Shown here piece by piece: positions 21,439-27,075 of a DNA stretch of 64,000 bases. Origin of the DNA: Phaeodactylibacter xiamenensis (lineage in GTDB: Bacteria > Bacteroidota > Bacteroidia > Chitinophagales > Saprospiraceae); NCBI RefSeq assembly GCF_000759025.1, contig NZ_JPOS01000012.1, positions 372,001-436,000 on the forward strand, in the 5' to 3' direction. Each line of letters starts with the position of its first letter. The first letter of the stretch is position 1. The position numbers and the translations under genes were made by a program. The notes beneath the pieces are model-generated. The model did no database searches and was not told where the DNA came from. It saw only the letters and a program-made list of their open reading frames with translations.

Positions 21439-21512
21439 CCCACTCACTGAAGAACCAAAATTCAGACTGCGTGTTATACTTTCAAAAATTACTGAAAATA
21501 ACGAATTTAAAT

Positions 21513-22781
21513 ATGAAAAGTGTCATCACCTGTGATATGGAGGGTCGGATTGAGACCTTCAATAAAGGCGCGGAAGAAATGTTCGGGTATCCTGCGGACG
21601 AGGTCATCGGGAAGGAGCGGGTTTCTGTCTTTTCTCCGGGAGAGATTGTGCTCCAAAATGTACCAGTCTGGCTCGATGAAGCCAGTAAGCACGGCAAGTA
21701 TACCGCTAAAACCAAGTTTGTGCGCAAAGATGGCACGCCATTCAATGCCAAAATCCGCGTTACGCCCACTTTTGCCAATGGTAAAGACAATGGTCAAACC
21801 GGTTATTGCGGGGTGACTGAAGTGATTGAGGAGGAGGTCAACCCAACTATTAAGTTATCCACCAAGCTGATCAAAGCACTGGCGATCACACGTATGCCCT
21901 TTCTGTCGGCAGTGCTGATGCCAGCGTTCATAGGAGGCGCGTATGCTTATCACTACGAGCTGGGTTCGCCCGGTGCGTTCAACTGGTGGTTGTTTACCCT
22001 TGCAGTAATTGGCGTGGCGCTGCTCCACCTCGGCAGCAACGTCATGAACGACTACTTCGATGTCAAGGACGGCACCGATGGGGCGAATAACGACTATTTC
22101 CTGCAATTTTCGGGCGGTAGCCGGGCTATAGAGCTCGGGCTCATCACGCTCGAAGGTACTAAACGCCTGGGCCTGGCGCTGATCGCCGGTGCGACACTCA
22201 TCGGTATTTACCTGACAGCAGTCACCGGTTGGGTGACGTTCCTGATTGGGCTGGCGGGATTGGCTATCGGCTATTTATACACCGCGCCTCCGGTACGCCT
22301 GGTCGCCCGTCAAGGGTTGGGAGAACTGGGGATTGCGCTGGCTTTTGGTCCCCTGGTCACTCTTGGAATCGTTTATGTAGTAACGCAGCAGCTTTCCCCA
22401 ATGGCATTTCTGATCGGACTGCCTGTGGGTCTGCTAACCGCCAATATCCTGCTCATCAATGAGTTTCCGGATGCGGAGTCAGATGCTAAGACCGGCAAAA
22501 ATCACCTCGTCGTTACCTTCGGCAAGGAAAAGAGCACCTATATATATCTGTCGATACTGATTATGGCTTTTCTGTCTAATCTCGCGATTGTCTGGTTCCT
22601 GCCTAACACCAATCCCTGGCTGATTGGCGTGAGCGTTGCTTCACTGGTTGCAGGCATTTTGATCTTCCGGCATGTTCGGGAGCACTATCAGGACCGGGAA
22701 CTGGTAACTTCCAACAAAAATACGATAGCCCTCAGCGCACTGACCGGTCTGCTGACAACACTCGCCTTGATAATAGGATAA
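21513..22781 (+). CDS. PAS domain fused to UbiA-family prenyltransferase (MenA-like)
   Basis: This 422-aa protein joins two modules. Residues 1-115 are a PAS domain (ITCDMEGRIETFNKGAEEMFGYPADEVIG, then KFVRKDGTPFNAKIRVTPTF). Residues 125-422 are a UbiA prenyltransferase with about eight helices and both Asp-rich motifs: NVMNDYFDVKDGTD and NEFPDAESD. The closest known reaction is transfer of a polyprenyl chain to 1,4-dihydroxy-2-naphthoate (menaquinone synthesis), but the acceptor is uncertain. PAS domains sense ligands or redox and are normally tied to signalling outputs, not to an integral-membrane enzyme. I start at the ATG at 21513; a GTG at 21471 would add 14 residues before the PAS fold. 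Confidence 0.85.
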   Translation: MKSVITCDMEGRIETFNKGAEEMFGYPADEVIGKERVSVFSPGEIVLQNVPVWLDEASKHGKYTAKTKFVRKDGTPFNAKIRVTPTFANGKDNGQTGYCGVTEVIEEEVNPTIKLSTKLIKALAITRMPFLSAVLMPAFIGGAYAYHYELGSPGAFNWWLFTLAVIGVALLHLGSNVMNDYFDVKDGTDGANNDYFLQFSGGSRAIELGLITLEGTKRLGLALIAGATLIGIYLTAVTGWVTFLIGLAGLAIGYLYTAPPVRLVARQGLGELGIALAFGPLVTLGIVYVVTQQLSPMAFLIGLPVGLLTANILLINEFPDAESDAKTGKNHLVVTFGKEKSTYIYLSILIMAFLSNLAIVWFLPNTNPWLIGVSVASLVAGILIFRHVREHYQDRELVTSNKNTIALSALTGLLTTLALIIG

Positions 22782-22888: not shown

Positions 22889-22971
22889 TTTAGCGAAAAT
22901 TCGCAAAATTTCAGCCCTTATCCTTTACTTTTTGCCGATAAGCCCCTAAATTAGTAGCGAAAATTCGCTAA
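22889..22971 (+). promoter_or_regulatory. Two copies of a palindromic operator upstream of the acyl-CoA dehydrogenase
   Basis: Copy 1 (22889-22908) reads TTTAGCGAAAATTCGCAAAA and is imperfect on the right. Copy 2 (22955-22971) reads TAGCGAAAATTCGCTAA, with 7-bp arms around AA. The cores are 64 bp apart. The same 14-base core, TAGCGAAAATTCGC, recurs before fadH at 27050-27063. Together these suggest the binding site of a dimeric fatty-acid regulator (TetR/FadR-like role). Apart from the preceding terminator, the 315-base gap holds nothing else I can identify. Confidence 0.7.
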
Positions 22972-27039: not shown

Positions 27040-27075
27040 GCGATGAATTTAGCGAAAATTCGCTAAATTCATCGC
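27040..27075 (-). promoter_or_regulatory. 36-bp perfect palindrome upstream of fadH
   Basis: Arms 27040-27056 and 27059-27075 are perfect 17-base complements around the dinucleotide AA. The centre is TTTAGCGAAAATTCGCTAAA (27048-27067), the same element as at 22955. A further half-site-like ATCGCTAAAAT overlaps its right edge. It lies 17-52 bases before the fadH start codon, so a bound protein would block transcription. It could also fold as a hairpin in RNA, but it has no T-run. Confidence 0.75.

Follow-up and report, generated by a model that had tools for sequence, protein, structure and literature searches.

Regulons in which dispersed fad and etf genes respond to acyl-CoA are familiar from FadR of the GntR type, PsrA, and FadR of the TetR type in Proteobacteria and Bacillus. 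Among the ScfRs, which Carter and Alber reportedly classified in 2015, PrpR of Mycobacterium tuberculosis (IsaR/ScfR) combines an XRE-type HTH, an IrrE-like (DUF955) region, a GAF-like domain and a C-X2-C-X4-C motif with a further cysteine. The parts of the PrpR study consulted (PMC6765138) name the C-X2-C-X4-C cysteines plus Cys363 as the cluster ligands, give TTTGC(A/G)AA as the MtPrpR/MtRamB box, and place the 17-bp PrpR sequence only between prpR and prpD and upstream of icl1 in its genome. RamB of Paracoccus denitrificans and actinobacteria belongs to the same ScfR family, and the consulted part of PMC10370305 describes the Paracoccus protein as controlling glyoxylate-cycle genes and binding CoA thioesters. 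Here we analyze a 64,000-nucleotide stretch of DNA (the window) from a bacterium of the Saprospirales, probably a near relation of Phaeodactylibacter, together with the genome that contains it, and propose that a palindrome in the window very probably serves as the operator of a fatty-acid beta-oxidation regulon, most likely read by a 501-aa protein with XRE-HTH, IrrE-like and GAF-like regions that would work like PrpR and RamB. The candidate protein shares with PrpR the domains and cysteines listed above, a compatible box, targets in acyl-CoA metabolism, the best fold match in the PDB and apparent autoregulation (for PrpR, the consulted part of PMC12565409). Unlike PrpR, a single palindrome recurs at 14 sites over the beta-oxidation pathway; it has a 2-bp centre and is doubled at 63-64 bp before fadE, in contrast to the two boxes with an 18-bp spacer given for Paracoccus in the part of the literature consulted. 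The regulon would function in the manner of the FadR and PsrA regulons, although the protein families are unrelated. In the literature searched, whose scope left most subscription journals outside, we found neither a Bacteroidota fatty-acid-oxidation regulon nor a beta-oxidation ScfR, and the whole 18-mer occurs in no paper there, while a paper carrying only its inner 14-mer could remain hidden; the consulted main text of a survey of XRE palindromes (PMC12565409) contains no TTCGC, GCGAA, acyl-CoA, Bacteroid or RamB. The proposal thus describes a fatty-acid-oxidation regulon for Bacteroidota, naming its operator, its targets and a candidate regulator, and would bring beta-oxidation under an Fe-S/acyl-CoA regulator family whose known roles are in the metabolism of propionate and acetate.

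The 14-base core TAGCGAAAATTCGC occurs exactly at 22891-22904, 22955-22968 and 27050-27063, and a scan of the window bore out the original prediction that it has no fourth exact copy there. With up to two mismatches, both strands together gave five matches where 0.54 would be expected (two of the five read the same places from the opposite strand), and none of 100 shuffles reached five. The core is part of a longer unit, the 18-bp palindrome TTAGCGAA-NN-TTCGCTAA (Table 1). As predicted, two copies lie 5' of the acyl-CoA dehydrogenase gene and one 5' of the fadH-like gene, at the outer promoter ends of the two genes; these are convergent, however, and not divergently placed as had been claimed. 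The name fadH stands as far as an OYE plus pyridine-nucleotide oxidoreductase family is concerned, and is beyond that a family-level guess, with no curated NCBIfam cut-off reached among the best 25 of 54 matches listed. Just upstream of the first operator is an ORF (21471-22781, + strand) for a MenA/UbiA-type prenyltransferase with an N-terminal PAS domain, a combination that is unusual to our eye.

We then scanned the 7.87 Mb genome (164 contigs) with the palindrome, using the same pattern reversed as the control, and obtained 14 sites against 1 at up to two mismatches; at up to three mismatches there was no excess (29 sites against 27), and the 15 additional sites were therefore not used. 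Since fadE has two sites, the 14 amount to 13 places, of which 11 fit one regulon based on targets named from ORF calls and Pfam/NCBIfam, the TonB-dependent receptor and the GMC oxidoreductase being counted among them because both recur in relatives (the receptor at L253 and L269, the GMC protein at L265). In the case of the Fe-S and CCG protein pair, which together resemble EtfD at the level of family, the called ORF spans the site and the start was placed just downstream of it by reading. Hence, the supposition of a shared operator defining a fatty-acid oxidation regulon is supported by the excess over the control, by the identity of the targets and by conservation in relatives: as the original prediction had anticipated, most sites at up to two mismatches precede genes of acyl-CoA metabolism, electron transfer or lipids, and one stands before the gene of a regulator. 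It erred in expecting that regulator to be TetR- or GntR-like, as the protein is instead of the XRE-HTH/IrrE-like type, resembling PrpR and RamB, and no TetR_N or GntR gene was found beside an operator among the annotated neighbors at the 13 places. At G000:C77:9747-10226, four three-mismatch matches are spaced exactly 154 bp apart and probably represent a tandem repeat rather than operators.

Table 1. Operators, promoter elements, genes and genome-wide targets. Plain coordinates are those of the window; positions beginning with G000 are given by contig of the same genome; distances are from site to gene.
Feature	Position	Strand	Remarks
Operator O1, fadE promoter	22890-22907	.	TTAGCGAAAATTCGCAAA, 1 mismatch to palindrome
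Putative -33 element of fadE	22924-22928	+	TTTAC, from alignment of 30 fadE promoters
Putative -7 element of fadE	22947-22954	+	TAAATTAG, one mismatch to TAnnTTTG; ends on first base of O2
Operator O2, fadE promoter	22954-22971	.	GTAGCGAAAATTCGCTAA, 1 mismatch to palindrome
FadE acyl-CoA dehydrogenase, 601 aa	23097-24902	+	NF058590, 771.6 bits, cut-off 600; in-window target
FadH/OYE-like flavin oxidoreductase, 674 aa	24999-27023	-	Oxidored_FMN + Pyr_redox_2; in-window target
Perfect inverted repeat, 17-bp arms, 2-bp centre	27040-27075	.	Contains fadH-like operator
Operator, fadH-like gene	27049-27066	.	TTAGCGAAAATTCGCTAA, perfect palindrome, 25 bp from gene start
Candidate regulator, 501 aa	G000:C13:22132-23634	-	Own promoter carries operator
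Paralogous regulator (L274)	G000:C38:39737-41270		
Paralogous regulator (L275)	G000:C2:97177-98758		
Target: second 601-aa acyl-CoA dehydrogenase			Site 76 bp upstream
Target: FadB-type 3-hydroxyacyl-CoA dehydrogenase/crotonase			82 bp
Target: 396-aa acyl-CoA dehydrogenase			68 bp
Target: ETF beta + alpha			123 bp
Target: Fe-S protein + CCG protein, EtfD-like			Start read just after site
Target: fatty-acid hydroxylase			12 bp
Target: GMC oxidoreductase			38 bp
Target: TonB-dependent receptor			162 bp
Target: HTH + IrrE-like regulator			13 bp
Outlier L025			Beside genes without Pfam family; kept as probable noise or unknown
Outlier L026			Inside GNAT gene; kept as probable noise or unknown

The expectation that the motif would also precede orthologous genes in relatives was borne out. 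In 12 relatives, chosen by us among those with listed sites, matches with at most one mismatch define 62 places (one of the four sites of G190 is omitted), and we scored a place as linked to one of the named kinds of gene when such a gene began no more than about 400 bp away in either direction. At 43 of these a beta-oxidation, electron-transfer, fatty-acid-hydroxylase or regulator gene is nearby, for the most part the same orthologues: FadE, FadB, ETF beta, two other acyl-CoA dehydrogenases, EtfD-like and FadH-like proteins, the fatty-acid hydroxylase, enoyl-CoA hydratase, acyl-CoA ligase, thiolase and the regulator. Seven further places show a TonB receptor (2), a cholesterol-oxidase-like GMC protein (1), an SDR (2) or an E1 dehydrogenase (2), and 12 show no evident connection to lipids. 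Among these 12 are one LpxC and three subtilase genes, the latter each placed after the operator in a different relative (L214:3187-4704, L227:3026-4750 and L242:3070-4623). Promoters of fadE were compared in 70 of the 96 genomes having the gene at E 1e-150, namely the 30 closest and 40 that we chose (28 of the 30 regulator-less genomes, 7 whose only regulator copies are divergent or paralogous, and 5 with the regulator and no one-mismatch site). All 30 closest promoters carry a site with at most two mismatches, against 0/30 for the reversed control at both two and three mismatches; 29 of these genomes have the regulator and one, G155, has a paralogue only. At up to three mismatches the further 40 promoters yielded a site in 1/28 without the regulator (G214), 4/7 with divergent or paralogous copies only and 2/5 with the regulator, so that over all 70 the figures are 31/34 with the regulator, 5/8 with divergent or paralogous copies only and 1/28 without. 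We also note that G214 has two strong fadE operators 31 bp apart (G214:C59:23264-23312, L212) in a genome 85% complete in which no regulator was found, and that G155 (L148) likewise has two strong fadE operators, with only a paralogue found in a genome 89% complete.

Promoters of Bacteroidota follow the consensus TTTG/TAnnTTTG. At fadE, O2 starts 64 bp after the start of O1 and probably covers the transcription start, while the putative -33 element lies 16 bp past the end of O1; judged by eye, many of the 30 orthologous promoters have CTTTAC or a near variant shortly past the first operator. The -7 box of this genome is inexact, and an exact TAnnTTTG starts 6-8 bases before O2 in 10 of the 30 promoters (8 of them at 7), with looser matches beside the second operator in further ones. 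Two sites at up to three mismatches are present in 29 of the 30, their spacing being 64 bp in 14, 63 bp in 9 and 61, 62 and 65 bp once each (26/29 at 61-65 bp), with outlying values of 42, 52 and 185 bp in one promoter apiece. With the -7 box beside the second operator and the -33 element after the first, the fadE promoter is thus sandwiched. At etfB, TAnnTTTG occurs 44-49 bp past the site start in 10/10 promoters, which puts the site upstream of the -33 region; at fadB it begins 9-13 bp ahead of the site in 5/7 promoters, and no exact TAnnTTTG was found near the site in this genome's own fadB promoter. A count of TAnnTTTG pooled over mixed targets (6 before the site against 0.86 shuffled) merged two arrangements and was hence split by target.

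We posit that the regulator, like PrpR and RamB of the ScfR/IsaR kind, would be a tetramer with a [4Fe-4S] cluster and an acyl-CoA or CoA ligand, each HTH dimer of which would bind one inverted pair of TTWGCGAA half-sites. The fadE promoter would lie between two operators mostly 63-64 bp, or about six helical turns, apart, the downstream one abutting the -7 box and the upstream one standing just before the -33 box; as the operators flank the promoter, a tetramer could hold both by looping and keep the promoter shut until acyl-CoA builds up. A site mostly directly after the -7 box would favor repression at fadB, and one upstream of the -33 region might allow activation or ligand-dependent dual control at etfBA. 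Judged by site position, this suggests repression at fadB and fadE with activation left possible at etfBA; since the position of the operator varies among targets, one sign of regulation is not forced. A regulator that is purely an activator, for which the sites downstream of the -7 box would be minor, accords with the etfB promoters (upstream of the -33 region in all 10 examined) and with the description of MtPrpR and Paracoccus RamB as activators in the consulted parts of PMC6765138 and PMC10370305, yet the abutment of the second fadE operator on the -7 box and the location of the fadB site after it favor repression, and repression is given as the more likely role of MtRamB (PMC6765138, same part); we therefore regard pure activation as possible though rather doubtful.

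The original prediction that the regulator is absent from the window holds, the gene of the candidate lying elsewhere in the genome, on a different contig (G000:C13). At its N-terminus is an XRE/Cro-C1 HTH detected by Pfam HTH_31 (15-73) and HTH_3 (19-73), both above cut-off, and the IrrE-like (DUF955) region is detected as Peptidase_M78/IrrE N-terminal-like (26.3 bits, cut-off 22). Among named relatives the closest match comes from Phaeodactylibacter luteus (82% identical, in a search that may exclude records of the present genome), and an AlphaFold2 model of this orthologue (pLDDT 83.9, pTM 0.76) retrieved M. tuberculosis PrpR as its top five chains in a Foldseek search of the PDB (E ~1e-11), followed by IrrE/PprI. 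The match to MtPrpR has a TM-score of 0.65-0.68 by target and 0.45-0.47 by query length and an rmsd of 5.4-5.6 A, and the post-HTH regions of the predicted model have the fold of 6CYY, with an identity of 17-18% in the structural alignment setting the two proteins apart. By sequence, the regulator gave no match to DUF2083 at E 1e-3 and none in NCBIfam at E 1e-10, and PDB searches with the single regulator and with a 12-row profile returned HTH domains only and no PrpR. Four cysteines, C372 and the C-terminal C-X2-C-X4-C formed by C462, C465 and C470, are present in 91/91 regulators of at least 470 aa as extracted, a length cut that drops 6 of 97 regulators (five of them from family f8), and are invariant in 45/45 of A3. 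From its place in the protein, rather than from superposition, C372 appears to be the counterpart of Cys363 of MtPrpR, and the half-site TTWGCGAA fits the TTTGC(A/G)AA box. Kinship to the ScfR/IsaR proteins PrpR and RamB accordingly rests on predicted fold, domains and cysteines, and we file the regulator as a new class within this known kind.

The presence of sites tracks that of the regulator. Across 120 genomes of the family, with at most one mismatch, sites are present in 57 of the 62 that have a close regulator (223 sites against 11 for the reversed control), in 4 of the 50 without a detected regulator (6 sites against 7; weak HTH-only matches are counted here as no regulator) and in 2 of the 8 with only divergent or paralogous copies, the line between close and divergent being drawn by eye from identity such that G201 and G184, both at 44%, fall on different sides. 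Fisher's test yields 8e-21 with the 8 left out and 6e-18 with them counted as having the regulator (59/70), and other class cuts (59/70, 58/65 or 56/61 against 4/50) all yield p < 1e-17, values that ignore shared ancestry and are hence too small; the reversed control yields p 0.80. The exceptions are the five regulator-bearing genomes without a one-mismatch site and the four genomes with a site and no detected regulator. Over 149 genomes of the order, sites are present in 29 and regulator matches, some of them weak, in 50. With up to three mismatches allowed, the promoter of the regulator gene itself contains a site in 28/55 loci and in 31/78 loci of named genomes, leaving 27/55 and 47/78 without one; the control gave 0 in both sets, from which L120 (at a contig end) and 2 of 80 loci, respectively, are omitted.

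The genome holds two further regulators of this type, 42% and 38% identical. One is divergent from pckA (TIGR00224); the second, paralogue P2, faces the genes for malate synthase A and isocitrate lyase (TIGR01344, NF011645) in divergent orientation and thus recalls RamB, unlike the main regulator, which is tied to beta-oxidation. The intergenic regions of these pairs contain palindromes of their own, TTAGAGAAAATTTCTCTAA at pckA and TTAGCGGAATTTCCGCTAA at the glyoxylate genes, each the sole match in the genome at up to two mismatches. This bears on the possibility that the regulon is real and its 18-bp operator is bound by another factor, either a TetR-type FadR-like repressor or a paralogue, with the XRE regulator a mere member. 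The existence of two paralogues, the half or more of regulator promoters lacking a clear site, and the G214 and G155 drafts with fadE sites and no close regulator found would agree with it, but the paralogue type of regulator goes with other palindromes: the pckA type, TTAGAGAAA-N-TTTCTCTAA, occurs once each in 12/120 family genomes, 11/12 beside such a regulator (control 4), and the glyoxylate type, TTAGCGGAA-N-TTCCGCTAA, in 7/120, 7/7 beside one (control 1). A TetR gene does adjoin a site in one relative (L260), yet it is the sole TetR among the annotated genes of the 62 places, where part of the neighbors are annotated, and the tracking of sites with the XRE regulator over the 120 genomes further argues against another reader, which we consider unlikely. 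Chance matches or structural repeats such as terminators or REP-like elements near these genes, an account to which the long perfect inverted repeat around the fadH-like copy and the background level of three-mismatch matches might point, are refuted as the main explanation by the excess over control in the genome and family scans, and the conserved orthologous targets, mostly fixed spacing, promoter register and location of sites upstream of gene starts speak against them as well.

Sites of the beta-oxidation type and the XRE/IrrE-like regulator also occur beyond the family. Of 80 named loci, 12 have the regulator beside malate synthase; 9 of these come from relatives in Cytophagales, Hymenobacter or Pontibacter, and 11 of the 12 have a beta-oxidation-type site at up to three mismatches. 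In family f12 (L077, L080) sites precede FadB and FadE too. In family f8 (L057-L068) an aconitase gene follows the site in 9/12 genomes, with one site examined per genome and the aconitases identified by NCBIfam on locus-truncated proteins in two cases and by 75-99% mutual identity in the rest; f8 regulators L052-L056 have none of the four cysteines in 5/5 examined. This cysteine-less branch before aconitase raises the question of the cluster's purpose.

In a tree of 97 regulators, built by a quick search and read with 41 rows without a recognized operator not counted, the group with the beta-oxidation operator forms one side of a branch (support 100). Sub-branches correspond to the remaining two operators, apart from a single exception. 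Neither paralogue-type palindrome is present at up to two mismatches in 12 of 35 paralogue-type loci, among them L039 and L043 of another family, which carry the beta-oxidation-type operator. In the recognition helix the 28 beta-oxidation-type regulators have S40, V/I/L41, N45 and E46, the 11 glyoxylate-type S40, K/T/R41, H/N45 and D46, and the 10 pckA-type A40, I/V/L41, H45 and mostly N46, a correlation of residue with operator type in small, related sets. We lean towards a scenario in which one Fe-S/acyl-CoA-sensing regulator was duplicated in Saprospirales to give three paralogues that divide lipid-to-sugar metabolism among them, each with a rewritten palindrome (beta-oxidation, glyoxylate shunt and PEP carboxykinase) and with specificity set by residues 40, 41, 45 and 46, while in a sister family the same operator would have moved to aconitase and the regulator lost the four cluster cysteines. 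Three paralogues with three operators would thereby offer a compact natural system in which to work out DNA recognition by regulators of this type. The exception in the tree is L291 (G105:C5), a glyoxylate-clade regulator that lies beside aceB with a pckA-type palindrome and has V at both residues 40 and 41.
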